A DNA stretch of 36,834 bases, from contig JAVCBZ010000107.1 in assembly GCA_030765735.1 (NCBI GenBank), positions 1 through 36,834 of the forward strand. The letters run 5' to 3'. The translations under genes were made by a program, and so were the position numbers. The notes under the pieces were generated by a model that did not search any database, was not told the origin of the DNA, and saw nothing but the letters and a program-made list of their open reading frames with translations. This DNA is from Candidatus Susulua stagnicola. GTDB taxonomy: Bacteria > Omnitrophota > Gorgyraeia > Duberdicusellales > 4484-171. Positions 1,045 through 17,476 of the stretch are shown piece after piece (positions within the stretch are counted from its first letter, which is position 1; the number at the start of each line of letters is the position of its first letter).

Positions 1045-2004
1045 TTAAGGAGAGATATCAGTTAAATATTTAAAGTACTCTCCTTCAGTAGTAAGAATAA
1101 TAGTGGTATTTTTGTCTACAGTTGCACTATAGGTTTCTAATGTTTTTAGAAAAGAGAAAAACTCAGAATCTTTACTGTAAGCATCAGCATAGATCTTAGC
1201 GGCCTGGGCATCAGCGTTACCTTTGATTTCTTGAGATTCTTTGTAAGCTAAAGATAAAATTTCCTTTAGTTCTTTTTCAGTTTTTCCTTCAACTTCAGCA
1301 CGGATGCCTCTTCCCTCTGAGCGATATTGTTCAGCAGCTCTTTTTCGTTCAGCGATCATTCGTTCATAGACATTTTGTCTTACTTTTTCAATATAATTAA
1401 CTCTTTTAATTCTTACATCAATAAGTTCAATGCCATAACGAGGACCTAAATCACTTTTTGCTTTTTTTACAATTTCTTCTCTAATTTTCTCTCGACCCAT
1501 TTTTATTGTTGCTAGGACTCCTTCGTTAATAAATTCGTCTTCCTGTCCTATTTTTTCTTTTTCAATTAATTTACGCAATCTGTTTGATGAACGTACAACT
1601 TCAAATGAATCTTGAGCAGTAACTGCATCACGGACAGCAGCATCAATTATACCATCAAGTATTGCATGAGCACCTCTTTCATTGGCAACAGATTTAAAAA
1701 ATTTCAAAGCATCAACTATTTTCCAGCGAGCAGTAGTATCAATCCAAATATATCTTTTATCTTTTGTTGGTATTTCACTAGGATATCCATCCCATTCTAA
1801 TATTCGTTTTTCAAAATAAGTAATTTTTTGAATAAAAGGAATTTTTAAATGCAAGCCAGACAAAGTTATTGGATTACCTATTGGTTGACCAAACTGAGTA
1901 ATTATTGCCTGTTTTCCTTCTTCAACAATATAGAACGGGTTACCAATTAAAATAAGTATTATAATGATAATTGGAATGATGAAGCTTAAATTTTTATTGT
2001 TCAT
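1045..2004 (-). CDS. hflC: HflC, SPFH/prohibitin-family membrane protein
   Basis: HflC pairs with HflK to build a large membrane-anchored SPFH assembly that in proteobacteria encloses the FtsH protease and modulates its proteolysis. There is one N-terminal membrane segment (about residues 8-24, mostly Ile and Leu), then the SPFH core starting with YIVEEGKQAIITQFGQ, and then a charged helical region rich in EK, ER and AE from about residue 190 to 275. The length of 319 aa is typical. The start codon overlaps the 3' end of hflK by 11 bp, so translation is probably coupled. An ftsH-like gene lies on the other side of the accessory island, at 6374-8041. Identification rests on the pairing with HflK and on domain order. 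Confidence 0.92.
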   Translation of the reverse strand: MNNKNLSFIIPIIIIILILIGNPFYIVEEGKQAIITQFGQPIGNPITLSGLHLKIPFIQKITYFEKRILEWDGYPSEIPTKDKRYIWIDTTARWKIVDALKFFKSVANERGAHAILDGIIDAAVRDAVTAQDSFEVVRSSNRLRKLIEKEKIGQEDEFINEGVLATIKMGREKIREEIVKKAKSDLGPRYGIELIDVRIKRVNYIEKVRQNVYERMIAERKRAAEQYRSEGRGIRAEVEGKTEKELKEILSLAYKESQEIKGNADAQAAKIYADAYSKDSEFFSFLKTLETYSATVDKNTTIILTTEGEYFKYLTDISP

Positions 2005-2989
2005 TTTCTAATTTTAGTAAAGGTAAAATCCCTTTTTCTTTAGGGTCAAGTATATATTTTTTACCAGCATGGGTTAATGTATCTTGCATTTTTTCTAAAT
2101 AAAGACGTCTAAGAGTTATTTCCTTAGCTTGAGCATACTCTGCATATAGAAGAAGAAATCTTTTAGTGTCACCTTGAGCTATATTAATTTTCTCAAGAGC
2201 ATATCCTTCAGCTTCTTTGACTCTTTTAAGTGCTTCACCTTTAGCTTGAGGAATTTTTTGATTGTATACTTCCCAAGCTTGGTTTTTCAATTTTTCTCTT
2301 TCTTGTTTTGCTTGGTTTACTTCATTAAAAGCTGGTTTCACTTGTTCAGGTGGATTAACATCTTGTAATTTAAGTTTAACAATTTGGATTCCAATTTCGT
2401 AAGAATCAAGAATATCTTGCATTTCTTTTTGAGCTTGGTTATTTATATCTATACGTTTAGTGGTAAGAACTTCATTGAAAGCATGATTACCAACAATTCT
2501 ACGTAGTACAGATTCTGATATATCTCTTATTGTTTTGTCAACATTTCGAACATTAAATAGAGCCATGAAAGGATCTTGTATTTTAAATTGTACAATCCAC
2601 TCTAAATCTAAAACGTTCAAATCTCCAGTAAGCATTAAGGATTCATCATCATATGATTTTTGGCTATAAACTGATTTTACACCGCTAGTTCGAGTTCTAA
2701 ACCCAAATTCACTGGTATAGACTTTTTCTACTGGCACTGGGATAGCTTTTTCAATTCCAAAAGGCAATTTGAAATGAAGGCCTGGCGAAGTGGTTTTTAC
2801 AACTTTACCAAAGCGTAGTATTACTCCTACCTCGCTGGGTTGGATAGTATAAAAAGCGCCTTTTAAAATAGAGATAACAACCAAGATGCCGATTATTAAA
2901 GGTAAAGTAGTTTTTTTAGAATTATTAAAGTTGAATTTGTTCTTCAAGCTTCTTATAATTTCTTCAGGGCTTTTTTGTTGAAAATCCAT
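1994..2989 (-). CDS. hflK: HflK, SPFH/prohibitin-family membrane protein
   Basis: HflK is the partner of HflC in the HflKC complex of the inner membrane. Residues 1-28 are cytoplasmic, about 29-48 form a single membrane segment, and the SPFH domain follows with the hallmark YTIQPSEVGVILRFGKV. The C-terminal half is a long charged helix containing EREKLKNQAWEVYNQ. The Gly/Pro-rich N-terminal extension found in many proteobacterial HflK proteins is absent; the cytoplasmic tail is short and Lys/Asn-rich. The length of 331 aa is at the short end for HflK. ATG at 2989 is the only sensible start and lies 7 nt from a good promoter -10 box, with no room for a ribosome binding site. Confidence 0.93.
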   Translation of the reverse strand: MDFQQKSPEEIIRSLKNKFNFNNSKKTTLPLIIGILVVISILKGAFYTIQPSEVGVILRFGKVVKTTSPGLHFKLPFGIEKAIPVPVEKVYTSEFGFRTRTSGVKSVYSQKSYDDESLMLTGDLNVLDLEWIVQFKIQDPFMALFNVRNVDKTIRDISESVLRRIVGNHAFNEVLTTKRIDINNQAQKEMQDILDSYEIGIQIVKLKLQDVNPPEQVKPAFNEVNQAKQEREKLKNQAWEVYNQKIPQAKGEALKRVKEAEGYALEKINIAQGDTKRFLLLYAEYAQAKEITLRRLYLEKMQDTLTHAGKKYILDPKEKGILPLLKLENEQ

Positions 2990-3059: not shown

Positions 3060-3202
3060 GCTGTCCTTATTCCCACATAAGGTAAGATGTCAACAAAAAT
3101 AGATGTCCCTACTTAATTATGTCTTAAAAGGTTCCTGACACCGTTTTCCTACTATACTAAGTATCCCGAAGTAGGACGTCTATTATACCTAAATAGGTGT
3201 CC
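3060..3202. repeat. REP-like dispersed repeat cluster between hflK and the surface-protein gene
   Basis: This intergenic stretch is built of short motifs that recur at the other edges of the island: GATGTCCCTACTT, AGGTTCCTGACACC, AGTAGGACGTCT (3170-3181, exact copy at 6310-6321) and AAATAGGTGTCCCTATTT (palindromic at its edges, 3191-3208). No coding potential is seen. Such motifs resemble REP sequences mobilised by Y1-family transposases, but no such transposase is in the window. Confidence 0.5.
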
Positions 3203-3995
3203 CTATTTAAATTTTGCTTCCAGTATCTTAATGCGTGTATTTAAATGCTGAATATACACATGCGCCTTTTCTAATTCCTCCAAAATACCCCTTCTATGTG
3301 CTCCAATCTCAAGCATTTCTTGACCATTTTCATCAGTCTCTGTTCTAGGAACGGCCTTGAGGTGTTTATTCTGCCACATATATCCAGCATGCTTTTCAAT
3401 AGATTCCATCTCATAACCTGGCTCAAAGACATAATCAGCGTGGAGCACTCCACCACGTTGATAGATTGAGCCATTTACATCTAATTTGCCGGCAGGACTC
3501 ACCGTTCCGATGCCGACGTTGCCACCATCTCTTTGAAAAATAAGGGGATTGTTACCATAAGCGCTCTGAACTAGAAAATAAGCATTCGCCGGAGTAGCAT
3601 CGTATGTCCGCCTAACTACACCTCGATAATTGTTTCCTTGCCCTAAGGTTAGCAAACTATGCCCTGATGAATTCCCAACAGCGATTGTATTATCCGGTGG
3701 GTTTACACTAGAAATTGTATTTTCACCAACCACCAAACGTAAACTCGGACTCTCCGTCCCGATGCCGACGTTGCCTTCGACTATTAAATCAGCGGGGTCG
3801 GTAATAGTTGTTGCCGCAGAATCATAATAAGTGTCTCCTACAGCCATTTTTTTTGCCCGCATCTCATTATACACCCCAAAAGGGGCGGGATAGTAGGTGG
3901 TTATAGTGATATTTTCGGCAAAAGCGCCGGGGGTTAGGAATTAATAAAAAGAAAACCGAAAGGGGAAGAAGAATAAGAGCTTTTAATTTAGGCAT
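3203..3995 (-). pseudogene. frameshifted secreted surface/tail-fibre-like protein gene
   Basis: The ORF track starts at an internal GTG (3874), but the coding signal continues upstream in the same frame as FLTPGAFAENITITTYYP, a signal-peptide end and mature N-terminus. A strong ribosome site (AAGGAG) and ATG at 3995 begin MPKLKALILLPLSVFFLL in a different frame. Removing one base near 3935-3950 (from the TTAATT or CCCCC stretch) joins them into one protein of about 264 aa with a normal secretion signal. The body contains two GNVGIGT repeats of the kind found in tail-fibre-like and S74-related surface proteins, and ends in a short coiled coil (EELEKAHVYIQHLNTRIKILEAKF). The stop codon lies inside the repeat at 3191-3208, so the C-terminus may also have been altered. 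Either a real pseudogene or an assembly error in a short homopolymer. Confidence 0.75.
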
Positions 3996-4063
3996 CCGGC
4001 AATCTCCTTGACTATTTGGTTTTTTGGGTTCAATCCTGTTACGTTCTCATTTTTGTTTTAGTG

Positions 4064-4324
4064 TTACTTATATGTTAACGGGTATTTTTCCGGACTGGTT
4101 AAAATTTCTGTAGATAAGTCAACATCTAACTTTGGCCAGTATAGATGATGATTGTGGAATAATTTTACAGTAGTTATCGCGGATATTTTGGCATTTTTAA
4201 ACCAAGGATATTTCTTGAAAGGGAGAAAATATTCTTTTTCATTTAATAAAATCCAAAAACCATGTTCAGAAATATTAGTTATCTCTGGTTTTAAGGTGCT
4301 CTTTCCATTTTTTAATAATTTCAT
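4064..4324 (-). CDS. DUF2442 domain protein
   Basis: A small protein of 86 aa that matches the DUF2442 pattern as I know it: a beta-rich N-terminal half (ISEHGFWILLNEKEYFL), a conserved segment about residues 38-60, and a C-terminal YWPKLDVDLSTEIL. Members are commonly encoded next to DUF4160 proteins, as here, and the pair is suspected to be a toxin-antitoxin-like or regulatory module; the biochemical role is not established. The ATG at 4324 is preceded by GAGAGG and sits 50 bp inside the upstream DUF4160 gene in another frame, an unusually long overlap that implies strict co-expression. It lies in the accessory island between hflK and ftsH. Confidence 0.75.
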   Translation of the reverse strand: MKLLKNGKSTLKPEITNISEHGFWILLNEKEYFLPFKKYPWFKNAKISAITTVKLFHNHHLYWPKLDVDLSTEILTSPEKYPLTYK

Positions 4325-4523
4325 TTTTATGCCTCTCTACAGTTTTTTGTAAAAAATTTAATTGTTTTTTGGAAAGACCTGAATAATTTGCCAACGCGAT
4401 TAACGGTTCTAACCAAAACTTTGCTTCTCCGTCTGGAGAAATAACATGAATATGAACTCTCGGCTCCTCTTTGGAGAAAAAATAAAATCTATATTTTCCT
4501 TCTCTGAATACTGTAGGACTCAA
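4275..4523 (-). CDS. DUF4160 domain protein
   Basis: An 82-aa protein with the DUF4160 signature: an N-terminal SPTVFREGKYRFYFFSKEEPRVHIHV, in which the EEPRVHIHV segment is the conserved core, then KFWLEPL and a helical, Lys-rich C-terminus. The start is TTG at 4523, supported by GGAGG about 9 nt upstream; no ATG is available at the right place. It is the first gene of a two-gene unit with the DUF2442 protein. Function is unknown; the pairing and the location among mobile sequences are consistent with a selfish or stress-related module, which is inference. Confidence 0.75.
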   Translation of the reverse strand: MSPTVFREGKYRFYFFSKEEPRVHIHVISPDGEAKFWLEPLIALANYSGLSKKQLNFLQKTVERHKNEIIKKWKEHLKTRDN

Positions 4524-4644
4524 ATTAATCTACCTCCAAACAAATATATTATACCATAATTTTAAATTAAATTGCATCTTTTATTTACGGCTATTTTTTT
4601 ATATTTTTTGAAGGTGGAATGTCAATAAAAATAGGTGTCTGGGC

Positions 4645-4671
4645 AGATTCAAGTTTCTAATGCAACAGTTT
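4645..4671. repeat. left terminal inverted repeat of the IS30-family element
   Basis: 27 bp beginning AGATTCAAGTTTCTAATGCA; it pairs with 5679-5705. The transposase stop codon lies inside it. Confidence 0.8.
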
Positions 4672-5649
4672 ATAAAATACTTCATTTGGCGTATAAAAAT
4701 CATGAACCTTTCTGGGTCTATCATTTAACAACTCTTGGACCTCTTTAAGTGTCTTTTTCGATACTTTATTAAAATCTGTACCCTTTGGAAAAAATTGTCT
4801 CACCAATCCATTTGTGTTTTCGTTTGTGCCTCGTTCCCAAGGCGAATGAGGGTGTGCAAAATAAACAGTTATATCAGTCTCTTTTGTGAAAAGCTTATGC
4901 TGTGACATTTCTTGGCCTTGATCATATGTTAGTGTTCTTTTTAATCCATTAGGAAGATTACTAAATTCTTTTGCAAATGCTTTTCTAACAGATTCGGCAT
5001 CTTTAGCCTGTAACTTAACTAAAAGTGTTAAACGAGTTACACGTTCAACTAGTGTACCAATGGCAGATTTGTTCATAGTACCCACCACTAAGTCACCTTC
5101 CCAATGGCCTGGTATAATCCGATCTGCAACATCAGATGGTCTTTCTTCAATACTGAGATAATCCTGTATGGGGCATGATTTCTGACGCTCCTTCTTAGAT
5201 CTGCGGTTTTTATGATGCCTTCTCAGACATAATATAATCTCTTTTTTTAAAATGCTACGTGGCCGAACATAAAGATAGCTATAAATTGATTCATGCGAGA
5301 TGTGCATACTCATATCATTAGGATACAGTATTTTAAGTCGTCTTGCAACTTGTTCTGGAGTCCATCGCTTTTGCACTATGTGATAATGAACAAGCTTAAG
5401 TAATTTTATATTTTTATCAAGTTTTCGTTCTCTTGGATACCGATGTAGTTGCTGTTTTGCATATTCTTGACCATTTAAAGCCCTGTAGTCATTCTTGCAT
5501 GGAGATGAACGCTTAATCTCACGAGAAATAGTGCTTGGAAGTCTGTTCATTGCCGTAGCAATATTCCTGACGCTGGCACACAAAACTAATTGACGACTAA
5601 TTTCCTCACGTTCAGCAAAGGTTAATCTTATATATTTATTCATAAGCAA
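4657..5649 (-). CDS. IS30-family transposase
   Basis: A DDE transposase of 330 aa that cuts and joins the ends of the surrounding insertion sequence. Residues 1-60 form the helix-turn-helix region typical of IS30 (RLTFAEREEISRQL, then STISREIKR). The catalytic core carries GHWEGDLVVG with the first Asp (about residue 187), LTYDQGQE with the second (about 244), and SPWERGTNENTNGLVRQFFP with the catalytic Glu (about 279). The IS30 signature N-x-N-G-L-x-R-x-F-x-P-K is complete. Translation starts at MLMNKYIRLTF; the second Met, two codons in, is an equally possible start. No frameshift or truncation is seen. Confidence 0.95.
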   Translation of the reverse strand: MLMNKYIRLTFAEREEISRQLVLCASVRNIATAMNRLPSTISREIKRSSPCKNDYRALNGQEYAKQQLHRYPRERKLDKNIKLLKLVHYHIVQKRWTPEQVARRLKILYPNDMSMHISHESIYSYLYVRPRSILKKEIILCLRRHHKNRRSKKERQKSCPIQDYLSIEERPSDVADRIIPGHWEGDLVVGTMNKSAIGTLVERVTRLTLLVKLQAKDAESVRKAFAKEFSNLPNGLKRTLTYDQGQEMSQHKLFTKETDITVYFAHPHSPWERGTNENTNGLVRQFFPKGTDFNKVSKKTLKEVQELLNDRPRKVHDFYTPNEVFYKLLH

Positions 5650-5678
5650 CTCCTTTATCTGCTATTTTAACAGATTTA

Positions 5679-5705
5679 AAAGTGTTGCGTTAGTGACTTT
5701 AATCT
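5679..5705. repeat. right terminal inverted repeat of the IS30-family element
   Basis: 27 bp, reverse complement beginning AGATTAAAGTCACTAACGCA; 22 of 27 positions match the left end at 4645-4671. Confidence 0.8.
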
Positions 5706-5740
5706 CCACTGTCCCTATTTCGTCCTATTTCCCTCTATTT
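5706..5740. repeat. short direct repeats next to the IS30 end
   Basis: On the minus strand the motif GAAATAG occurs three times at 10-11 bp spacing (...GGGAAATAGAGGGAAATAGG...). The sequence lies between the IS30 right end and the stump of the HEPN gene, and resembles the AAATAGGGACA motifs elsewhere in the island. Confidence 0.5.
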
Positions 5741-5761
5741 CCCTCGCGCATCTCTTTTCAT
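5735..5761 (-). pseudogene. stump of a HepT-like HEPN toxin gene (8 codons)
   Basis: An ATG overlaps the stop codon of the MNT nucleotidyltransferase gene (ATGA) and opens a frame reading MKRDARGK before a TAG. HEPN/DUF86 toxins encoded directly after MNT antitoxins commonly start MKRD-x-R. The frame runs into the AAATAG direct repeats and the IS30 end within a few codons, so the toxin gene has been cut off by the repeat or IS. Only 27 bp remain, so the reading rests on position, overlap and four residues. Confidence 0.5.
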
Positions 5762-6045
5762 AAAAGCACTACCTGTTCTTTCAATATTTTTTCTCTAAGA
5801 AGGGGTTTGAGGGTGTCGTATTCTACCAAATCTACTTTGCACCCCACGGCCTCTTCGATTTTTTGTTTAAGCCCTACAAAACCAAGCAGGCTAATATCCG
5901 CCTTAATATCTACCAAAATATCAATGTCACTCTCTTCTCTCATCTCGCCCCGGACACATGAGCCGAAAAGGGCTACTTTTTTAACTTCATAATCCCGTAA
6001 GATTGGGAGAATTTTTCGTTTTATTTCTTCAATATCTTTTTTCAT
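5758..6045 (-). CDS. MNT-family nucleotidyltransferase, orphaned antitoxin type
   Basis: A minimal nucleotidyltransferase (95 aa) of the DNA polymerase beta fold. The catalytic pattern GSCVRGEMREESDIDILVD (GS-x-R-G...D-x-D) spans about residues 28-46 and a further VDLVEYD lies near residue 75. In MNT/HEPN pairs this protein silences the HEPN RNase by AMPylation or other NMP transfer. The usual partner would follow immediately on the minus strand, and there only an eight-codon stump remains (5735-5761). The ATG at 6045 is the natural start (MKKDIEEIKRKIL). The gene looks intact, so it is an antitoxin-type protein without its cognate toxin in this window. Confidence 0.88.
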   Translation of the reverse strand: MKKDIEEIKRKILPILRDYEVKKVALFGSCVRGEMREESDIDILVDIKADISLLGFVGLKQKIEEAVGCKVDLVEYDTLKPLLREKILKEQVVLL

Positions 6046-6061
6046 CTTTTCTTTGTTACAA

Positions 6062-6087
6062 CCCGTTGGAGAATTTTCTCTAACGGG
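6062..6087. repeat. 26-bp near-perfect palindrome upstream of the MNT gene
   Basis: CCCGTTGGAGAA and TTCTCTAACGGG form a 12-bp stem with a 2-nt centre and one G-T pair. It ends 17 bp upstream of the MNT start codon. It could be an operator for the MNT/HEPN operon or another dispersed palindrome; the sequence does not decide. Confidence 0.6.
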
Positions 6088-6241
6088 GCAAAATTATAAT
6101 TTTCGCTTATCAATTCATATTTACTAGTATATGTTAGGATGATTAAAAAGGCAAGAAAGAATATTGCCAAGTAGTGTCAAGATTTATTCGCAAATTATAA
6201 AGGTTTCTTGACGGGAAGTATTAAACGGGAGAAGTATTAAA

Positions 6242-6323
6242 GCAGGCGTTCTACTCAGGGACACTCTATTTCTGTGCAAGGGGTATTGTAAGTTTATAGG
6301 GTGTCCCTGAGTAGGACGTCTGC
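6242..6323. repeat. large inverted repeat (28-bp arms) upstream of the ftsH-like gene
   Basis: The left arm 6242-6269 (GCAGGCGTTCTACTCAGGGA...) and the complement of 6296-6323 (GCAGACGTCCTACTCAGGGA...) agree at 25 of 28 positions, with 26 bp between them. The right arm contains AGTAGGACGTCT, shared exactly with 3170-3181. It has the form of a REP pair or small MITE and marks the far edge of the island. Confidence 0.7.
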
Positions 6324-6373: not shown

Positions 6374-8041
6374 ATGACTGGAAAAAAATTAGGAAAACTT
6401 TTTAAATTACACTGGCTAAAAATCGTTTTTAGTCTTTTGATTCTTGCCTTTATCTCAGGAGTAATCTTCTTACTTATTATCGGAGTTCAGCAATTCATAG
6501 GTTTAGAGTCATTTTACAAGCGGACTACTTTAGCTAGTATTCCCTTTCAGATGTTTATGGCTATAATTACTGCTATTGCTTTTGCAAGCATATATATGGG
6601 CTTTCATTATTGGTTTATGTTTGGTGGTGGCTTAACTAAAATCGGTCAGAAAAAAATAAAGACTGCTGATGTAAATGTCAAATGGTCTGATGTGGTTGGA
6701 ATGGAGTCATCTAAACGGGAAGTTGCTGAAGTAATAAGTTTGCTTAAAGATCGAGCTCAACTTAAACGTGTTGGTGGAAGAATTATTAAAGGTATACTTA
6801 TGTCAGGACCACCGGGTTGTGGCAAGACTTATTTAGCTAAAGCCCTGGCTACTGAAACTGGTCTCCCCTTTTTAGCAACTGTTGGAAGTGAATTCATGGG
6901 CATGTTTGTAGGTATGGGTGCTGCTCGCCTAAAATCATTATTTAAAGAAGCTAGAGCATTAGCTGACCTTCATGGTGGTTGTCTTATATTTATTGATGAA
7001 ATTGATACCATAGCTCGGCCAAGGGTAGGAATTAGTGGTCTAGGTGGTGGTATGTCATACAATGCTACTGTGAATCAGCTTCTTACTGAAATGGATGGTT
7101 TGCGTCAAACTGAGAATAACATTGTAATTGTTGCTGCTACTAATGTTAATGAAAATGAATTAGATTCAGCTCTTATGCGGGCTGGTCGATTTGATCGTAA
7201 GATTTATGTAAACAAACCTCGACTTAGTGATAGAAAAAAATTATTTGAATATTATTTAGGTAAGGCTCAATCTGATCCTAAAATAGATAGCAACGTTTTG
7301 GCTAAAAGAACCATAGGTTTTTCCCCAGCTGATATTGCCAATATGGTACGTGAAGCATCGTTAATTGTTATTCGTAATAAGTGCGGAAAAATTACTTATA
7401 AAGACCTTTCTGAGGCTTATGACCGGGTAGTATTTGGTTTACAAAGTCAAATTGTTTTAAGTGACAAAGAAAAAAAGTGGACAGCTTACCATGAAGCTGG
7501 TCATGCGATTATTGCTTACCTTACTCATCCTACTGATGATGTTATAAAAGCTTCAATTGTTCCTCGTCGAGGTGCTTTAGGCTATGTTGGCCATAGGCCT
7601 AAGGAAGAAATGTATGCACCATCAAGAGAATGGTTTGTTGCCAACATTAAGACTTCTTTAGGTGGTTATGCGGCTGAGAAAACTAAATTTGGAACTACTA
7701 GCTCAGGTGTAGCCAGTGATTTTAATTCAGCTTTAAAACTTGCCCATAATATGGTTTATCGTTATGGTATGGGTGAAAGTGGTATTTTAGGTAATTTCGA
7801 TGCTTTAGTTTTTGGTCAAACTTCTCTTCTTTCAGAAGACACCAAGAGTAAGATTGATGATGATGTGCAGAAGATATTAAGAAGTTGTCTTAGTGAAGTA
7901 ACTGAGATATTAAATAATGAGAAAGAACTCCTAGAATATTTTGCAAAAGAATTACTTCAGAAGGGTGAACTTGAATATGATGAGATTGTTGAAATATTTA
8001 AAAAGCATGGCAAAGAACGTTCTGAAGATTTTTCTAATTAG
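6374..8041 (+). CDS. ftsH: FtsH-like membrane AAA+ zinc metalloprotease with minimal periplasmic domain
   Basis: A membrane-anchored ATP-dependent protease that extracts and degrades membrane and soluble proteins. Two membrane segments lie at about residues 15-38 and 57-80. The AAA+ module has Walker A GPPGCGKT (145-152), pore loop MFVGMG (about 177-182), Walker B LIFIDEID (204-211) and the second region of homology with the RAGRFDR arginine finger (269-275). The M41 protease domain has HEAGH (373-377) and the third zinc ligand in VASDF (D449). At 555 aa it is shorter than usual FtsH (about 610-650): the stretch between the membrane segments is only about 20 residues instead of about 70, so the periplasmic domain that meets HflKC is missing. 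GGTGAT precedes the ATG closely. The next gene overlaps by 35 bp. Confidence 0.93.
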   Translation: MTGKKLGKLFKLHWLKIVFSLLILAFISGVIFLLIIGVQQFIGLESFYKRTTLASIPFQMFMAIITAIAFASIYMGFHYWFMFGGGLTKIGQKKIKTADVNVKWSDVVGMESSKREVAEVISLLKDRAQLKRVGGRIIKGILMSGPPGCGKTYLAKALATETGLPFLATVGSEFMGMFVGMGAARLKSLFKEARALADLHGGCLIFIDEIDTIARPRVGISGLGGGMSYNATVNQLLTEMDGLRQTENNIVIVAATNVNENELDSALMRAGRFDRKIYVNKPRLSDRKKLFEYYLGKAQSDPKIDSNVLAKRTIGFSPADIANMVREASLIVIRNKCGKITYKDLSEAYDRVVFGLQSQIVLSDKEKKWTAYHEAGHAIIAYLTHPTDDVIKASIVPRRGALGYVGHRPKEEMYAPSREWFVANIKTSLGGYAAEKTKFGTTSSGVASDFNSALKLAHNMVYRYGMGESGILGNFDALVFGQTSLLSEDTKSKIDDDVQKILRSCLSEVTEILNNEKELLEYFAKELLQKGELEYDEIVEIFKKHGKERSEDFSN

Positions 8042-8816
8042 TTTTGTTTTATTTTTTCTTTTATCTTGTACAGTTCCTGCTACCTATTCACGTAAAAACA
8101 TTCAAAAATCATTAAAAGATATTTGTAAAAATGAATTTAACATTGAGGTTAAGGTTAGGTTCTCTGGAGAGACTATTTGGGTTTATGCTCCGCTTGAAGA
8201 ACTTATTGATTCAACTGGTCAGTGGAATAAAGAAGTTCAGGATACACGAGTAAAGATTTTTCTTGCTTTAGGGCGAGTCTTTCTAAGTATGGATAATCCT
8301 CCAAAACTTTATTGTTTATTGGCCTCAGGTATAAAGGGAACTGGTTTGGATACTTATACAATAGGATATATTCCTGATATGATTAAATTTGATTTGGGTT
8401 TTATCTCTTCAGCTGAGCGTGAAAAAAGAATTGCTTTCCTCTCTTTTCCAAACCCCAGTGCTCTTAGCGATGCTAAGGGTGAGCATATACAAGAATATGA
8501 TATATCTATTGGTGAATTCATTTCTTATTTAGTAGGTCAGAATGTTGAAGAAAAATTTCGCTCTTCTCTATTTAATAAAAGCTTTCAATTGAAAAAAATA
8601 TTTGCATATTATCGGAATAATACTTTAAAGGTAAATTTTGATATTAAAAGTATTGAGCCTCAAGAAAATTCAATTAATCCATTTGATGAAGTCAGAAAAA
8701 CTATAAAAGAAATTTTAGATATTTACAATTCCTCTTCTGAGATTACGGAGATAGAAATTAATAATTTCTCAACTGGTAAGGCTAGAGTTTATACCCCAGA
8801 AAATTTAGCCCTTTAA
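8007..8816 (+). CDS. hypothetical lipoprotein overlapping the ftsH-like gene
   Basis: Not recognised as a named family. The ORF track starts at 7941, but ATG at 8007 gives a textbook lipoprotein signal: MAKN, a hydrophobic stretch, and lipobox LLSC with Cys at residue 21. Thr at +2 suggests outer-membrane sorting by proteobacterial rules, which may not apply here. The mature part, about 249 aa, is mixed alpha/beta with no obvious repeats, catalytic motif or extra Cys clusters. It overlaps the 3' end of the ftsH-like gene by 35 bp in another frame, so the two are translationally linked. Given that the protease lacks a periplasmic domain, this lipoprotein is a plausible extracytoplasmic partner, which is inference from position only. 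Confidence 0.8.
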   Translation: MAKNVLKIFLISFVLFFLLSCTVPATYSRKNIQKSLKDICKNEFNIEVKVRFSGETIWVYAPLEELIDSTGQWNKEVQDTRVKIFLALGRVFLSMDNPPKLYCLLASGIKGTGLDTYTIGYIPDMIKFDLGFISSAEREKRIAFLSFPNPSALSDAKGEHIQEYDISIGEFISYLVGQNVEEKFRSSLFNKSFQLKKIFAYYRNNTLKVNFDIKSIEPQENSINPFDEVRKTIKEILDIYNSSSEITEIEINNFSTGKARVYTPENLAL

Positions 8817-8841: not shown

Positions 8842-9456
8842 TTAGGAAATTATTTCGACTTGCCTTCCCCTAACTTTTATTTTTTTATCCAGAATAAGTT
8901 TCAAAGCTTTGGGGTATAATTTATGTTCAAGATTGTGAACTTTTTCTTCAAGTTTTTTTTCGCTCATTCCCTTCTCTATTTTAATAGTTTCTTGTAAGAT
9001 TATTGGTCCGTGATCAATTTCTTCGTCAATGAAATGAATTGTAACCCCGGTTATTTTGCAGCCATACTCATAAGCTCTTCGGATAGCCCCAACACCTTTG
9101 AAGGCTGGCAATAGTGAAGGGTGAATATTTAAAATTTTGTTGTTAAAATTTTTTACAAAGAAAGGAGTAATAAGTTTCATATATCCGGCTAAAATTATAA
9201 GATCAATTTTTTCTTTTTTTAAAATTTCAATTATTTTTTTATCAAAGGCTAATTCAGATTTGAATTTATTAGGATCCACAAAAGTATCTTTTATATTTAA
9301 ATTGTTAGCGCGTTTGCGAACAAAAGAATTTTTTTTATCAGTGATTAAAATTTTTATTTTAGCATTTATTTTTTGTTTAGAGATTGCTTCAACTAGAGCT
9401 TGAAAATTTGTTCCATTCCCTGAGGCTAACACTGCAATATTTTTTTTCTTTACCAT
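8842..9456 (-). CDS. purN: phosphoribosylglycinamide formyltransferase PurN
   Basis: PurN transfers the formyl group of 10-formyl-tetrahydrofolate to glycinamide ribonucleotide, the third step of purine synthesis. The N-terminus has the phosphate-binding VLASGNGTNFQAL (residues 9-21). The catalytic region has NIHPSLLPAFKG, with Asn and His, and the Asp-containing IDHGPIILQ. The length of 204 aa fits the family (about 190-215). It follows rseC by 4 bp on the minus strand and so appears to be the last gene of the rnf transcription unit. It converges with the lipoprotein gene; no good terminator hairpin is visible in the 25-bp gap. Confidence 0.95.
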   Translation of the reverse strand: MVKKKNIAVLASGNGTNFQALVEAISKQKINAKIKILITDKKNSFVRKRANNLNIKDTFVDPNKFKSELAFDKKIIEILKKEKIDLIILAGYMKLITPFFVKNFNNKILNIHPSLLPAFKGVGAIRRAYEYGCKITGVTIHFIDEEIDHGPIILQETIKIEKGMSEKKLEEKVHNLEHKLYPKALKLILDKKIKVRGRQVEIIS

Positions 9457-9460
9457 TAGT

Positions 9461-9853
9461 TTAAATTTTTCGTAAAATCTTTAAATTGAATTTCTTACCA
9501 TTTTTCCTAAGCATTAATTTAACACTTACATAATAGATGCAAATTGCTAATAGAGCAATAGAAAAACTAAAAAGTTCCCCATGGCTTCTAAAGAAAACTA
9601 AGCTTGATACAAAAATCAAGGCTGGCGCAAAAAACATAATTAAGCTGGCTATAAGGGTTTTTTTCTCTTCAATACCAATTTCAACTTTATTGCCTACATC
9701 TAACTTAAGTTGATTATTTTCTAAGGTCAATGTTTCTTTACTCATGCCACAAACATCAGAGAGCTTACAACAGGAGCACATTTCTTTTTTGGTAAATCTT
9801 ACCTTAATCTTATTATCGCAGACTTCAACTATGTCGACTATTTCTTTAAACAT
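9461..9853 (-). CDS. rseC: RseC/MucC-family protein
   Basis: A small membrane protein (130 aa) of the RseC/MucC family, known as a sigma-E regulator in Escherichia coli and as a factor affecting Rnf-dependent SoxR reduction; in many anaerobes it is encoded with rnf genes, as here directly after rnfB. The N-terminal soluble part carries the family cysteines C26, C28, C29 and C35 (CSCCKLSDVC), probably a metal or Fe-S site. Two membrane helices follow at about residues 66-84 and 90-110, then a basic tail. It is separated from rnfB by a perfect short palindrome. A role in assembling or servicing Rnf is inferred from the context. Confidence 0.85.
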   Translation of the reverse strand: MFKEIVDIVEVCDNKIKVRFTKKEMCSCCKLSDVCGMSKETLTLENNQLKLDVGNKVEIGIEEKKTLIASLIMFFAPALIFVSSLVFFRSHGELFSFSIALLAICIYYVSVKLMLRKNGKKFNLKILRKI

Positions 9854-9861
9854 TATTTAAT

Positions 9862-9881
9862 GGACAGGGCAAGCCCTGTCC
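9862..9881. repeat. REP-like palindrome at the rnfB/rseC junction
   Basis: GGACAGGGC and GCCCTGTCC form a perfect 9-bp stem around AA. It begins one base after the rnfB stop codon and lies within the 28-bp gap to rseC. No T-run follows, so it is not a typical terminator; it may stabilise the upstream message or reduce downstream expression. Confidence 0.65.
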
Positions 9882-10688
9882 CTACGATATTTTTATAATA
9901 CATTTTGTTGGACATTTGCTCTTACCTTGCTCTAAACTAGTTGGATCATTTGGCTTATTGTAATTAAGCGTTGAGAGGTTGTCTTTCATTTGATAGGGAG
10001 AATTCTCTATTTTGGTGCATAAACTGCAACTAATACATCCCTTGCTACAAACTTTTTTTACTGCTAGTGCCGTCTCTTTGTTAGCACAAGCAATGTTATA
10101 GACAGGGAGGTTATTTTTAATTGGAACAAGTTCAAATAAGTTTCGAGGACAAGCTTTTAAGCATTTTCCGCAACCAATACATTTTTTAAAATCAACCTGG
10201 ATAGCTTGGTCTTTAAGCTCAAGAGCATTTGTTGGACAAACGTTTATGCAGTCACCAAGAGCTAGACAACCATAAGCACAGTCAATTACCCCACCACTTA
10301 TATTAGCAGAGCGACAGTCATTTGGACCAATATATTTTGATGATGATTTTTTTTCTTTGCTTTTTGCTGAACAATGACAGATAACTACTTGAGCGCTTGA
10401 AGAAACACAACCAGTTAGACCTAGAGCCTCAGCGATTTTTTTATTAACTTCTTCTCCAGCTGGCAAGCATCCTGAGAAGGTGCTACACTCTTTTGTTATA
10501 GTTTCAGCGTAAGCTCGACAACCGCTAAATCCACAAGCACCACAATTTAATCCTGGAAGTAATTCTAATATTTTTGTTACTTGAGGATTCTCTTTTACCT
10601 TTAATTTCTTACTTAATAAAGCTAGAAGTATTGAGAAAGCTAATCCAGTTAAACCTAAGACTATTGTTGGGATTATTATTTTACTCAT
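9882..10688 (-). CDS. rnfB: Rnf complex subunit RnfB, ferredoxin-type iron-sulfur protein
   Basis: RnfB is the entry point for electrons from reduced ferredoxin into the Rnf complex. Residues 5-25 form an N-terminal membrane anchor. A [4Fe-4S] domain follows with C49, C52, C57 and C74 (GLNCGACGFSGC), and then ferredoxin-type clusters at about residues 137-151 (CAYGC...C...CP) and 170-180 (CIGCGKCLKACP). Further cysteines at about 201-224 and near the C-terminus may bind additional clusters. The length of 268 aa is typical. It is the last rnf subunit gene in the order CDGEAB. Its TAG stop is part of a GTAGGGACAGGGC motif belonging to the palindromic repeat downstream. Confidence 0.95.
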   Translation of the reverse strand: MSKIIIPTIVLGLTGLAFSILLALLSKKLKVKENPQVTKILELLPGLNCGACGFSGCRAYAETITKECSTFSGCLPAGEEVNKKIAEALGLTGCVSSSAQVVICHCSAKSKEKKSSSKYIGPNDCRSANISGGVIDCAYGCLALGDCINVCPTNALELKDQAIQVDFKKCIGCGKCLKACPRNLFELVPIKNNLPVYNIACANKETALAVKKVCSKGCISCSLCTKIENSPYQMKDNLSTLNYNKPNDPTSLEQGKSKCPTKCIIKIS

Positions 10689-10690
10689 TT

Positions 10691-11272
10691 TTATGATGAA
10701 ATTAATCCTGAAAACCCCATAAAAATAAGGGCAAGCAGGCCAGCAGTAATTAAAGTTAATGATGCTCCTCTAAATACTTTAGGTATATTAACGTATTGAA
10801 GTTCTTCGCGGATGCCAGCCATAATTAATAGTACTAAAGAAAACCCTAGACCTCCGGAGAAACCAAAAACAACTGCTTCTAAGAATTTATAATTTCTGGT
10901 TACCATAAATAAAGCTGAACCAAGAATTGCACAATTTGTTGTAATTAATGGTAAATATATTCCTAAAGATTGATATAGAGAGCTAGAATATTTTCTTATA
11001 AACATCTCAACAATTTGGACTAATGAGGCGATAACTAAAATAAAAACCACATATTCAAGATAAAATAAACCAAATTTAACCAGAATAAGATTATAAATAA
11101 GCCAACTTATGCTAGTAGCTAAGGTCATTACAAAGGTAACAGCCATGCCCATGCCAAAGGCTGATTCAATTTTACCGGAAACTCCTAGAAAAGGGCAGAT
11201 TCCCAGGAAATAAGAGAGAACCAAATTGTTTATTAAGAGTGTCGAAACAAATATTATAATTAAATCTTGCAT
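10691..11272 (-). CDS. rnfA: Rnf complex membrane subunit RnfA
   Basis: RnfA and RnfE form the membrane core that holds an intramembrane iron-sulfur centre. The protein (193 aa) has six predicted membrane helices and the two expected cysteines, C26 in LGICPFLGVS and C114 in TTNCAILG. The ATG is fixed by the conserved N-terminus (MQDLIIIFVS...NNLVLSYFLG). No ribosome binding site precedes it; the position is filled by a dispersed repeat ending CACAGATTT, so it may depend on re-initiation after rnfE. The rnfB start follows after 2 bp. Confidence 0.95.
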   Translation of the reverse strand: MQDLIIIFVSTLLINNLVLSYFLGICPFLGVSGKIESAFGMGMAVTFVMTLATSISWLIYNLILVKFGLFYLEYVVFILVIASLVQIVEMFIRKYSSSLYQSLGIYLPLITTNCAILGSALFMVTRNYKFLEAVVFGFSGGLGFSLVLLIMAGIREELQYVNIPKVFRGASLTLITAGLLALIFMGFSGLISS

Positions 11273-11308
11273 AAATCTGTGTAATCTGTTTTTTAATCTG
11301 TGTAATCA
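11273..11308. repeat. dispersed GATTACACAGATT-type repeat between rnfE and rnfA
   Basis: On the minus strand the 13-mer GATTACACAGATT occurs twice, separated by a short A-rich spacer, and the second copy runs into the rnfA start codon. I know similar motifs as widespread intergenic repeats in unrelated bacteria. There is no coding content. Confidence 0.6.
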
Positions 11309-11333
11309 GGCATCCTATTTCTTATAGGATGCC
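11309..11333. repeat. hairpin overlapping the rnfE stop codon
   Basis: GGCATCCTAT and ATAGGATGCC form a perfect 10-bp stem with a 5-nt loop. One arm encodes the last residues of RnfE and the loop adjoins its TAG stop. No T-run follows in either direction. It may protect the rnfC-D-G-E portion of the message. Confidence 0.65.
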
Positions 11334-11902
11334 TCGATTTTGTTCATTACAGCCACTAGAAGTCCTAAAACTAAAAATGCTCCAGCTGGGAGAATCATTA
11401 TAATTAAAGGGTTATAATTTGCTGGCATTATCATTATTCCTAAAATGCTTCCAGCTCCAAAAATTTCTCGGATTGAACCTAAAATAAATAATCCCCAGCA
11501 AAAACCAAACCCCATACCTAAAGCATCACTTAGAGAGCTTCTAACATTATTTTTGGAAGCGAATGCTTCACAACGACCAAGAATAATACAATTAACAATA
11601 ATTAATGGAATATAAGGACCTAAGACACGACTAATTTCTGGGAATTGGGCTTTTAAAAATAAATCAACAATTGTAACAAAAGTTGCGATGATTACAGTGT
11701 AAACGGCAATTCGTACTTGGTGAGGAACTATTTTTTTAATTAGTGAAACTACTAATGAGGAAAAAAACAAAACAAAAATTACTGCAAGCCCCATAGAGAT
11801 GCCATTTATTGCTGAGGTAGTTACAGCTAAGGATGGACACATACCAAGGAGTTGACGAAATACCGGGTGATTTTTCCACAGGCCTTTAGTAAAATTTTTC
11901 AT
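11315..11902 (-). CDS. rnfE: Rnf complex membrane subunit RnfE
   Basis: Paralogue of RnfA and second half of the membrane core. It is 195 aa with six predicted membrane helices and the paired cysteines C22 (LLGMCPSLAVT) and C105 (IIVNCIILGRCEAF). The ATG at 11902 follows an A/T-rich leader without a ribosome site. It lies 65 bp after rnfG. Its 3' end is folded into a hairpin (11309-11333) and is followed by a repeat element, so the boundary between the CDGE and AB halves of the operon is marked by non-coding structure. Confidence 0.95.
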   Translation of the reverse strand: MKNFTKGLWKNHPVFRQLLGMCPSLAVTTSAINGISMGLAVIFVLFFSSLVVSLIKKIVPHQVRIAVYTVIIATFVTIVDLFLKAQFPEISRVLGPYIPLIIVNCIILGRCEAFASKNNVRSSLSDALGMGFGFCWGLFILGSIREIFGAGSILGIMIMPANYNPLIIMILPAGAFLVLGLLVAVMNKIEASYKK

Positions 11903-11967
11903 AATAATTATTTTCTATTTTATCTTATTTAATATTGTTTTTATATTTTCTTTTTTATTTTAAAAAA

Positions 11968-12522
11968 CTAATTCTTATTGAGAAGTTCTTTTATTTCTTT
12001 AATACGTTTATTTAAAGTATTTACTACTGCTCGCGAAGAAACCGTTGCTCCGGTAATTGCTTTTATTTGCCCTTCTCTTGGTGTATCGTTTTTTATACAA
12101 GTTATATCTTTGGTTATTGATAAATTTTTAAATTGATTTTTAAAAGGGTTTTTCTGAATTTTTGCACCAAGCCCTGGTGTCTCTAGAGATTCTACAACTT
12201 CAATACCTTTGATATATTCTAAAAGTTTATCAGTGACTACTAACATTTTTATTTTACCTTGATATCCTTGCCCAGAAGCTATAAAACCATAACCGATTAA
12301 GTTCTTGTTTTGATTGGAGAGTTTATATATTGTTTCAGTTACAATAGTTAACTCTTCTACATTTATTGCATCAGGAGCTAACATGGCTAAGGCCTTTTCT
12401 ATTCGTTTTTCTTTATTTATTTCAATTTTTTCATTAGCTAAGCCATAAACAACTGCTAGCAAAAGTCCACAGATAATACAAACTAAAGTTAATACCGAGG
12501 TTATCCTGATGACTTCTTTCAC
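11968..12522 (-). CDS. rnfG: Rnf complex flavoprotein subunit RnfG
   Basis: RnfG carries a covalently bound FMN on the outer side of the membrane and passes electrons within Rnf. The N-terminal membrane helix spans about residues 8-30. ETPGLGA (114-120) is the conserved segment of the FMN-binding domain, and TGATVSS contains the FMN-attachment threonine (T160). The length of 184 aa fits. The start is GTG at 12522, with a strong AAAGGAGGT 8 nt upstream. A flavin transferase (ApbE), required for FMN attachment, is not present in the window. Confidence 0.94.
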   Translation of the reverse strand: MKEVIRITSVLTLVCIICGLLLAVVYGLANEKIEINKEKRIEKALAMLAPDAINVEELTIVTETIYKLSNQNKNLIGYGFIASGQGYQGKIKMLVVTDKLLEYIKGIEVVESLETPGLGAKIQKNPFKNQFKNLSITKDITCIKNDTPREGQIKAITGATVSSRAVVNTLNKRIKEIKELLNKN

Positions 12523-12585
12523 TTTAACAAACCTCCTTTAAGATTTCAATGTAGACCCATAAGCCTTTTTTTAAACTAGTTGGGT

Positions 12586-13512
12586 TCATGTTCCAAATCT
12601 CCTTGGTTTGGTGTAGCGATTAATCAAAGGTGTTAAGGCATTCATAAAAAGAATTGAATACATGACTCCTTCAGGTAATCCGCCAAAATATCTTATTATC
12701 ATTATTAGTATTCCACAACCAATACCAAAGATGTATCTCCCTTTTTTAGTGGTTGGGGTGGTGACTGGATCAGTAGCCATAAAAAAAGCTCCTAATAGTA
12801 AGCCACCACTGAATAGATGAAACCAAATTGAACCCCAGCTAGGATTAATTAAATATAGAATAATTGAACTTATAGTTGTGGTAAGCAATAAACTTAAAGG
12901 GATGCGCCAGCCAGCAACTTTTCGTATTAGAAGATATAGACCTCCGATTATTAAACAAATTGCTGAAGTTTCACCTAAACTTCCAGAAACTTTACCAAAA
13001 AATAAACTTGAATTGGGTGTAATTACTTGGCTAAATTTTCTTAAAATTAGTGGAGTAGCTGAACTTATGGCATCAACTGAATTTGGTTTTATAAAAGTAG
13101 TAAGCATTTTGGGGTAAGCCGCCATAAGAAAAGCTCTGCCGATTAAGGCTGGATTAAAAATATTTGCCCCTAGACCACCAAAAATATGTTTTCCAATACT
13201 AATAGCAACTATAGAGCCTAAGCTAGCTGCATACCAGGTTACTGAAGGTGGAAGGGTAAGAGCTAGCAATAAGCCAGTTACTGCAGCACTATAATCATTT
13301 AGGGTGGAAGGCTTTTTACGCAAGAGTAAAATGATTCTTTCAGTTATCAGTGCAGTGAATGTACAATTTGCAATTAGCAGAACAGCTCTGATTCCAAAGA
13401 AATAAATTGAAGCGATTACTGCTGGTAGTAGGGCGATCATCACTTGTTTCATTAGGTAAGATGTACTTAACCTTGATTTTAAGTGAGGCGGGCTACTTAT
13501 TATTAATGACAT
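12586..13512 (-). CDS. rnfD: Rnf complex membrane flavoprotein subunit RnfD
   Basis: RnfD is the large membrane subunit, with a second covalent FMN and a likely role in ion translocation. It is 308 aa with about nine to ten membrane helices. The FMN site is SSATP (T153), and GGLGANIFNPALIGRAFLM (about 112-130) is the strongly conserved segment. The gene overlaps the 3' end of rnfC by 20 bp, showing translational coupling. Its 63-bp gap to rnfG holds the strong ribosome site of rnfG. Confidence 0.95.
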   Translation of the reverse strand: MSLIISSPPHLKSRLSTSYLMKQVMIALLPAVIASIYFFGIRAVLLIANCTFTALITERIILLLRKKPSTLNDYSAAVTGLLLALTLPPSVTWYAASLGSIVAISIGKHIFGGLGANIFNPALIGRAFLMAAYPKMLTTFIKPNSVDAISSATPLILRKFSQVITPNSSLFFGKVSGSLGETSAICLIIGGLYLLIRKVAGWRIPLSLLLTTTISSIILYLINPSWGSIWFHLFSGGLLLGAFFMATDPVTTPTTKKGRYIFGIGCGILIMIIRYFGGLPEGVMYSILFMNALTPLINRYTKPRRFGT

Positions 13513-14785
13513 AATTTTTTCCTGTTTTTATATAATGGACAATAGGTATTTTTGCCGGACAACCATAAGTACAACAACCACATTCAATACAGTCGGTAAT
13601 ATTAAATTCAGCCAAAGATGAGTAATTATTTTTTTTAATTCGTTTTACATATTCTAAAGGAAGAAGATTCATTGGGCAAGTGTCAACGCAGCGGTTACAG
13701 CGTAGACAAGGCTCCTCTTTGGCGCTATCAATTCCATCAGCTAGGAATAGAAAACCACCAGCATTCTTAAGTATTGGATAATCTAAGCTGTCGAGTGCAA
13801 TACCCATCATCGGTCCACCACAGATTATTTTTTTAGGATCTTTCCTAAATTCTAGAATTTTTTTATCAATTAACTCTTTCAAAGTTGTTCCGATTTTTAC
13901 CCAAATATTCCTTGGAGTTACTAATCCATCACCACAGAAGCTAACTAATCTTTCAATTAGAGGTTTATCAAGATAAATGGCTTGATAAATTGCAAAACAA
14001 GTGGCAACATTATGAACCAAACAACCAACATCAAGTGGTAATTTTCTAGGAGGAATTTTTTTCTTGGTTATTAGTTGAATAAGTTGTTTTTCTCCTCCTT
14101 GTGGGTAAGCAGTATTTAAGACAAAAGAGTGTATCGGAGGTAATTCAATTTTATTTGTACTGATGAAAAGATTTATTTTTTTTATTGCTTCGGGTTTATT
14201 CTCTTCAATCGCAAAGATTACTTCTTTAGGGTTAATCAATTTACAGATTAATTTAATTCCCATAAATATTTCTTTCATCTTCTCTATCATTAAGCGGTAA
14301 TCACAGGCCAGATATGGCTCACATTCACAACCGTTGATTATCAAAGTATCAATTTTCTTGGGCGGGTTTAACTTTACATGAGTTGGGAAAGCAGCTCCGC
14401 CCATACCAACTATTCCATGATTAGCAATAGTTTCTAATATTTTTTCTTTACTTAAAGATTCAATATCTTTATTATCACGGGGTAAGTATTCTTTTTCTTC
14501 ATCTTGGCATTGAATAATAATTGCTGGGGATTTTTTTAAAGTTGGGTGATACCAATTGGCGATATCAATAATCTTTCCTTTTTTTGGGGCATGCAATTGA
14601 GAGGAAATCAACCCTCGAGCATTAGCAATCACATCTCCTTGATCAACTATGTCACCTTTCTTAACACAAGGCAGTGAAGGGGCTCCAGTATGTTGAGCTA
14701 AGGGAAGATAAAGTTTAGAGGGGCTAAGAAACTTTTCACTAACTAAGTTATGCTGAGGTTCTTTATGCTCTGGTACTTTAATCAT
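13493..14785 (-). CDS. rnfC: Rnf complex NADH-side subunit RnfC
   Basis: RnfC is the peripheral NAD(H)- and FMN-binding subunit with two [4Fe-4S] clusters. The N-terminal biotin-carrier-like region covers about residues 25-100. GMGGAAFP (127-134) is the flavin/nucleotide-binding glycine motif, and NGCECEPYLACDYRLM (151-166) is a family hallmark. The cluster cysteines are C360, C363, C366 and C370 and then C399, C402, C405 and C409. The length of 430 aa matches the anaerobe-type RnfC without the long C-terminal repeat extension seen in proteobacteria. It is the first rnf gene in the order CDGEAB and overlaps the upstream MFS gene by 8 bp. Confidence 0.96.
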   Translation of the reverse strand: MIKVPEHKEPQHNLVSEKFLSPSKLYLPLAQHTGAPSLPCVKKGDIVDQGDVIANARGLISSQLHAPKKGKIIDIANWYHPTLKKSPAIIIQCQDEEKEYLPRDNKDIESLSKEKILETIANHGIVGMGGAAFPTHVKLNPPKKIDTLIINGCECEPYLACDYRLMIEKMKEIFMGIKLICKLINPKEVIFAIEENKPEAIKKINLFISTNKIELPPIHSFVLNTAYPQGGEKQLIQLITKKKIPPRKLPLDVGCLVHNVATCFAIYQAIYLDKPLIERLVSFCGDGLVTPRNIWVKIGTTLKELIDKKILEFRKDPKKIICGGPMMGIALDSLDYPILKNAGGFLFLADGIDSAKEEPCLRCNRCVDTCPMNLLPLEYVKRIKKNNYSSLAEFNITDCIECGCCTYGCPAKIPIVHYIKTGKNYVINNK

Positions 14786-16345: not shown

Positions 16346-17461
16346 ATGCCGTTTATGATTTTACCAACACCCTATTATTTAATTTATGAGCAGAAATTGC
16401 TCAAAAACTTAAAAACCATTGAGCGGATTAGGAATAATTCCGGCGCTAAATCTGTTTTAGCCCTAAAATGCTTTTCAACTTGGTCGGTTTTTCCGTTTAT
16501 GAAAAGATATATTGATGGAACAACTAGTAGCTCATTGTATGAAGCTCGCTTGGGAAGAGAGAAATTTGGCAAAGAAGTTCACGCTTATAGTGTGGCTTTT
16601 TCAACTGATGAGGTAGAAAAAGTTAGGCAATATGCTGATAAAATTATTTTTAATTCAATATCTCAATTAAAGAGACATTATAATATTGTTAAATCACTCA
16701 ACATAGGTTTGAGAATAAACCCTCAGATTAGTTTTTCACATTTTGATTTAGCTGATCCAGCTCGTAAGTTTTCAAGACTGGGTGTAGTTGATAAAAATTC
16801 TCTTTCAGAGATTGTACCACTGATTCAAGGATTAATGTTTCATTTTAATTGCGAAAATGATAATTTCAATAATTTTGTTTCCAGTGTTGACTTTATTGGT
16901 CGGGTTTATGGGGATTTATTAAAAAAAATGCAATGGGTTAGCTTAGGTGGTGGAATTCATTTCACCAAAAAAGGCTACCCAGTTAAAAAGTTGATTAAGC
17001 TATTAAAAGATTTTAGTAATAAATTTAAAGTTCAGGTTTATCTTGAACCAGGAGAAGCAATTATAACTCAGTCAGCCGAACTAGTAACTAAGGTGGTTGA
17101 TATTGTTCACAACCAGAGAAATATCGCGATTATTGACTCCTCTATTGAAGCTCACATGTTAGATTTATTAGTTTATCAGATGAATGCTAAGATAGATAAA
17201 GCTTCTGAAGGAGGAAAGTTCGAATATGTAATAGCTGGTAATTCTTGTTTAGCTGGCGATGTCTTTGGTACTTATCGTTTTAAGGCTCGTTTAAAGGTTG
17301 GAAGCATTATTAGAATTAGCGATGCAGCTGGCTATACAATGGTTAAGAAAAATTGGTTTAATGGGCTTAAAATGCCTTCGATTGTTGTAAAAAAGAAAAA
17401 TGGATCATTACGCATAATTCGTCGCTTTGAATATAAAGATTTTTTAAATAACTTATCGTGA
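16346..17461 (+). CDS. nspC: carboxynorspermidine/carboxyspermidine decarboxylase
   Basis: A PLP-dependent decarboxylase of the alanine racemase fold (fold III) that converts carboxynorspermidine or carboxyspermidine to norspermidine or spermidine, the last step of the aspartate-semialdehyde route. The PLP lysine is K41 in LALKCFSTWSVFP. TTSSSLYEARLG, HFNCEND, SLGGGIHF and EPGEA (phosphate binding) follow the NspC order, and NSCLAGDVFG near the C-terminus supplies the active-site cysteine. The length of 371 aa is typical. Neither ATG 16346 nor ATG 16355 has a ribosome site; family alignment (start near ILPTPYYLI) and the promoter position slightly favour 16355. The synthase gene follows after 15 bp. 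Confidence 0.93.
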   Translation: MPFMILPTPYYLIYEQKLLKNLKTIERIRNNSGAKSVLALKCFSTWSVFPFMKRYIDGTTSSSLYEARLGREKFGKEVHAYSVAFSTDEVEKVRQYADKIIFNSISQLKRHYNIVKSLNIGLRINPQISFSHFDLADPARKFSRLGVVDKNSLSEIVPLIQGLMFHFNCENDNFNNFVSSVDFIGRVYGDLLKKMQWVSLGGGIHFTKKGYPVKKLIKLLKDFSNKFKVQVYLEPGEAIITQSAELVTKVVDIVHNQRNIAIIDSSIEAHMLDLLVYQMNAKIDKASEGGKFEYVIAGNSCLAGDVFGTYRFKARLKVGSIIRISDAAGYTMVKKNWFNGLKMPSIVVKKKNGSLRIIRRFEYKDFLNNLS

Positions 17462-17476
17462 GGGAGGTCAAATAAA

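Follow-up and report, generated by a model that had tools for sequence, protein, structure and literature searches.

The window analysed here, that is, the whole stretch of 36,834 bases, is an entire contig of an Omnitrophota genome bin (1.1 Mb, 94% complete). It carries hflC and hflK, an inserted island, a gene encoding an FtsH-like protease and, overlapping the end of the latter, a gene encoding a lipoprotein (Table 1). The protease has the features of FtsH and other M41 membrane proteases, including two N-terminal transmembrane helices, an AAA+ module with Walker A and B motifs, pore loop and second region of homology, and an M41 domain with HEXXH and a distal Asp. Its product matches the Pfam models AAA (2.3e-35), AAA_lid_3 and Peptidase_M41 (5.6e-44). 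Walker A, Walker B (FIDEID), the pore motif MFVG, RAGRFDR, HEAGH and the third zinc ligand all align to solved FtsH structures, among them T. maritima 2ce7 (E = 5e-97). The initial annotation had described the AAA+ and M41 motifs as intact, which these matches and alignments bear out, and judged by its motifs the protease is catalytically intact. The two membrane helices, AAA+ module, lid, M41 domain and full set of motifs are shared with canonical FtsH (E. coli, T. maritima; TIGR01241). The TIGR01241 score is 453 bits, below the 600-bit equivalog cutoff for canonical FtsH.

Table 1. Features of the window and of the related loci (L numbers).
Feature	Position	Strand	Remark
hflC	1045..2004	-	Band_7 match
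hflK	1994..2989	-	Band_7 match; adjoins short ftsH divergently in nine relatives
Insertion (island) between hflK and short ftsH	3161..6321	.	bounded by 21-nt direct repeats (86%) at 3161 and 6301
Island: S74-like VGIGTxSP-repeat protein	3203..3874
Island: IS30-like transposase	4657..5649
Island: MNT-like nucleotidyltransferase	5758..6045
Short-loop FtsH-like AAA+ M41 metalloprotease, 555 aa	6374..8041	+	orthologs in 60/60 loci
First transmembrane helix, residues about 17-38	6422..6487	+	sequence, alignment, helix in AlphaFold model
Short extracytoplasmic segment, residues about 39-58	6488..6547	+	conserved LESFYRxxxLAxxPxQ
Second transmembrane helix, residues about 59-82	6548..6619	+	sequence, alignment, AlphaFold model
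Walker A GPPGCGKT, residues 145-152	6806..6829	+	in 50/51 single-unit relatives
Zinc-binding HEAGH, residues 373-377	7490..7504	+	in 51/51 single-unit relatives
Candidate third zinc ligand Asp449 (SGVASDF)	7718..7720	+	aligns with T. maritima FtsH SGAAND; column invariant
Overlap of protease and lipoprotein genes, 35 nt	8007..8041	+	54/60 relatives overlap, by longest ORF
Lipoprotein of undescribed family, 269 aa	8007..8816	+	mature part of two alpha-beta-beta-alpha-beta-beta units
Lipobox cysteine Cys21 (LLSC)	8067..8069	+	invariant column
Fused double proteases	L035:5974-9030 (-); L046:6290-9355 (+); L051:9723-12743 (-); L052:2182-5208 (-); L053:5576-8614 (-)
Lipoproteins with TPR array	L037, L045, L047, L049, L052, L053, L055, L057, L061, L067

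The folded periplasmic domain of canonical FtsH, about 70 residues long, is absent from the window protease. A second, full-length ftsH was found in the same genome (L001 276-2156, minus strand, 626 aa). Its helices are about 70 residues apart, as are those of the further canonical Omnitrophota FtsHs inspected, whereas about 20 residues separate the two helices of the short FtsH, in agreement with the initial annotation. The Pfam FtsH_ext model also fails on canonical Omnitrophota FtsH, so the loss of the domain is read from length and not from FtsH_ext. In the AlphaFold model, which is of moderate confidence here (pLDDT 68), the N-terminus is a helical hairpin (residues 3-42 and 46-82) with no outside domain. 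The complete short proteases of relatives keep HEXXH and have two helices 14 to 28 residues apart, with one exception, in which one helix alone passed the hydrophobicity cut. The LESFYRxxxLAxxPxQ motif is present between the helices in many of the short FtsHs, and this segment is better conserved than the helices on either side (mean distance 0.61 vs 0.78 and 0.76).

The lipoprotein gene starts at an ATG at 8007, inside the protease gene, as the initial annotation had placed it. The longest frame begins at 7941 (TTG); the start at 8007 was chosen since it agrees both with the relatives and with the signal peptide. The gene overlap makes translational coupling likely. The product has a signal peptide with a lipobox cysteine, as expected of a bacterial lipoprotein. 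It had been described as belonging to no recognised family, and indeed no relative was found among Pfam, NCBIfam or PDB sequences. The fold of the mature part is confidently predicted (pLDDT 91.6), in the order helix-strand-strand-helix-strand-strand; after a spacer this order is repeated. A structure search against the PDB gave no credible full-length match, and a viral structure library gave none. The sole PDB match with E < 0.001 was SAM synthetase, which at a TM of 0.25 and an rmsd of 19 Å is not a real fold match. The weak matches include BON and ring-building proteins (DolP, OsmY, CdsD), which like the lipoprotein consist of repeated small alpha/beta units. These matches are, however, non-significant (E 0.01-0.1, TM about 0.2), and neither a sequence relation nor a Pfam BON match was found in the lipoprotein. 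The possibility that the lipoprotein is a relocated FtsH periplasmic domain was rejected, as hhalign with 15 canonical periplasmic domains gave probabilities of 0.3-1.6%.

In ten of 60 loci the lipoprotein is extended by a TPR array, to a total of 511-719 aa. LapB, the TPR adaptor of E. coli FtsH (PMC13333357), is likewise a membrane-anchored protein with TPRs. The LapB repeats are cytoplasmic, whereas the Omnitrophota lipoprotein is extracytoplasmic and its N-terminal part is unrelated.

The pairing of the two genes was followed across the phylum. A single-sequence search finds the lipoprotein in 133 of 195 relatives, and a profile search finds it in 322 of 384 Omnitrophota genomes. The initial annotation had held that a lack of this adjacency in relatives would refute its proposal, and the adjacency proved to be conserved throughout the phylum. 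A protease lies directly upstream of the lipoprotein in all 29 of the first relatives' loci, and a short-loop FtsH does so, on the same strand and in the same order, in 60/60 Omnitrophota loci. Another 30 loci were drawn largely from other families and classes; the short-loop FtsH is upstream in 29 of them, and the exception stops at a contig edge. Since dozens of genomes share both the short loop and the gene pairing, neither is a matter of chance. The pair is joined in all 60 loci and usually overlaps, which suggests that the short FtsH and the lipoprotein work as one unit. A paper describing the pair was not found in open PMC texts. Overall, this variant of the FtsH system is real, well conserved and, as far as the open PMC literature shows, undescribed.

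The purN and rnf genes lie downstream of the pair, in convergent orientation, in most of the 60 loci (8842-14785 in the window). The same order of short ftsH, lipoprotein, purN and rnf occurs in a locus labelled Planctomycetales (L101), which is probably a mislabelled Omnitrophota bin. Farther along the window (16346-18712), adjacent genes read from their sequence as a putative carboxynorspermidine decarboxylase and a saccharopine-dehydrogenase-like protein (polyamine synthesis).

In the 195 genomes, the presence of the lipoprotein and that of at least two M41 genes agree in 186 (136 with both, 7 with the lipoprotein only, 2 with the M41 genes only and 50 with neither), with a Fisher p of 3e-36 that ignores shared ancestry and is inflated for that reason. 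Both M41-only exceptions (G036 and G068) have a diverged lipoprotein gene directly after the short ftsH. The seven lipoprotein-only genomes carry just a weaker-scoring M41 of the short type, as they would if the canonical copy were missing from the bin. Nearly complete genomes are among those without the pair, which indicates that the module is lost as a unit. In the window's family alone, ten genomes have one M41 gene and all ten are without the lipoprotein; with such losses within single families, the link is seen repeatedly despite shared ancestry.

In a tree of the AAA and M41 domains, all short FtsHs fall into one clade (support 100), whose stem measures 1.77 changes per site and which lies apart from canonical Omnitrophota FtsH and from T. 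maritima FtsH. The short FtsH thus has an ancestry separate from that of canonical FtsH. The clade includes both halves of fused double proteases of about 1,010 aa, found in five loci (Table 1) and in part of L033, which contain two AAA-M41 units and a single membrane hairpin, with no linker helix evident. Their N halves group with the lineage of the window and their C halves with another lineage of short FtsHs. A second, divergent FtsH beside a core copy is also known from Pseudomonas aeruginosa clone C (PaFtsH2, PMC10850787). PaFtsH2, in contrast, was acquired horizontally and keeps its periplasmic domain, and no lipoprotein partner is described there.

On the other side of the short ftsH lie the island and hflKC. 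Nine genomes of the window's family have hflK head-to-head with the short ftsH, with a gap of about 140-200 bp where measured, compared with 3.4 kb in the window. The hflKC/ftsH neighbourhood is therefore the older arrangement, into which the island was inserted. No further repeats of the island end sequence were found genome-wide. A 28-nt inverted repeat, with its arms 26 nt apart, lies just upstream of the short ftsH (6242-6323) and is absent elsewhere in the genome.

In the FtsH-HflKC holoenzyme of E. coli (PMC12048511), as is proposed here, FtsH has extracytoplasmic partners, and hflKC adjoins the short ftsH in the window's family. The E. coli partners dock on the periplasmic domain, where HflK Arg191 contacts FtsH residues 62-64; in the short FtsH this domain is absent, the unrelated lipoprotein does not re-supply it in sequence, and the partner would be the lipoprotein itself. 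The initial annotation had reasoned from HflKC, which normally meets FtsH through the missing domain. This argument loses its force, as 92 of the 195 genomes have a clear HflK, which shows no association with the pair (70 with both, 73 with the pair only, 22 with HflK only, 30 with neither; p = 0.42), and canonical FtsH is available to serve HflKC. Such a phyletic pattern argues that HflKC is dispensable for the short FtsH. No hflKC was seen beside the pair outside the window's family. Within that family, given the divergent neighbours in the nine relatives, an HflKC tie is possible, and hflK is to be regarded as a neighbour of the short ftsH rather than a demonstrated member of the module.

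Taken together, these features fit a separate lipoprotein acting as an extracytoplasmic partner, with which the conserved adjacency is consistent. We lean, by a small degree, towards a vertically inherited two-gene module of the Omnitrophota, in which a second FtsH paralog has its own lipoprotein as a partner supplied in trans. The bare helical hairpin would anchor the cytoplasmic AAA+/M41 unit, and the two proteins would be made together from their overlapping, probably translationally coupled genes. In the inner membrane the short FtsH presumably assembles into a hexamer. The lipoprotein may be placed outside, at or near the protease, and may physically interact with it as a receptor, adaptor or lid in the place of the periplasmic domain. 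The substrates of the pair may be envelope or membrane proteins not handled by the housekeeping FtsH. A broader reading, plausible though somewhat short of an even chance, is that the whole phylum has an FtsH system in which a separate, structurally unrelated lipoprotein has taken over from the lost extracytoplasmic part and, in trans, gates the hexamer or feeds it; fused double proteases and lipoproteins with a TPR receptor would be variants of this system.

The main rival is that the lipoprotein is mainly a client or product of the short FtsH, which degrades or matures it or its precursor, that coupling balances the dose of the two, and that the lipoprotein acts elsewhere, for example in the outer membrane. 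In E. coli, Asp at position +2 retains a lipoprotein in the inner membrane, and a lipoprotein lacking it goes to the outer membrane. The +2 residue of the lipoproteins studied here is mostly not Asp, which counts against the partner reading and in favour of a client located elsewhere. In 53 of 58 relatives, however, no LolA could be detected, and the E. coli sorting rule is therefore not applicable to these lipoproteins. (The five genomes with a detectable LolA are among relatives G000-G059.) Coevolution between the loop and the lipoprotein was likewise no better than elsewhere, which suits the client explanation. The partial distance correlation was 0.056, compared with a mean of 0.038 (sd 0.104) for other windows of the protease, and 100 of 499 permutations were as high. 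The loop correlation being no higher than that of other protease parts, the test gives no hint that the two proteins meet at the loop, and direct contact of the lipoprotein with the LESFYR segment is only a guess. Obligate pairing suits a partner and a substrate alike. On the other hand, a protease kept for a single lipoprotein would be unusual, and the TPR arrays of some lipoproteins resemble interaction modules. We consider the client relation unlikely.

A shared operon for regulation only, with each gene acting on its own (both might, for instance, belong to an envelope stress response), appears less probable still. Both products are indeed envelope proteins, but throughout the phylum the pair stays together amid changing neighbours, and the protease and the lipoprotein are lost together, which is stronger than usual operon conservation. 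Finally, the pair and HflKC might form one complex in which the lipoprotein replaces the FtsH periplasmic domain as the docking part for HflKC, a proposal that the position of the known HflK-FtsH contact and the nine divergent neighbours would favour but which is very improbable in view of the 73 genomes having the pair without a clear HflK, the restriction of the arrangement to one family, the canonical FtsH at hand and a lipoprotein without homology to the domain it would replace.

The partner reading, if correct, gives the undescribed lipoprotein family a likely function through its pairing. It might also be the first case in which a cytoplasmic AAA+ protease is linked to a lipoprotein that serves as its dedicated partner on the far side of the membrane. 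The fused double proteases offer a natural way to probe the construction of the hexamer. The Omnitrophota, which are tiny and uncultured, keep an old domain-less FtsH paralog beside a normal FtsH, and thereby provide a natural test of the role of the periplasmic domain.
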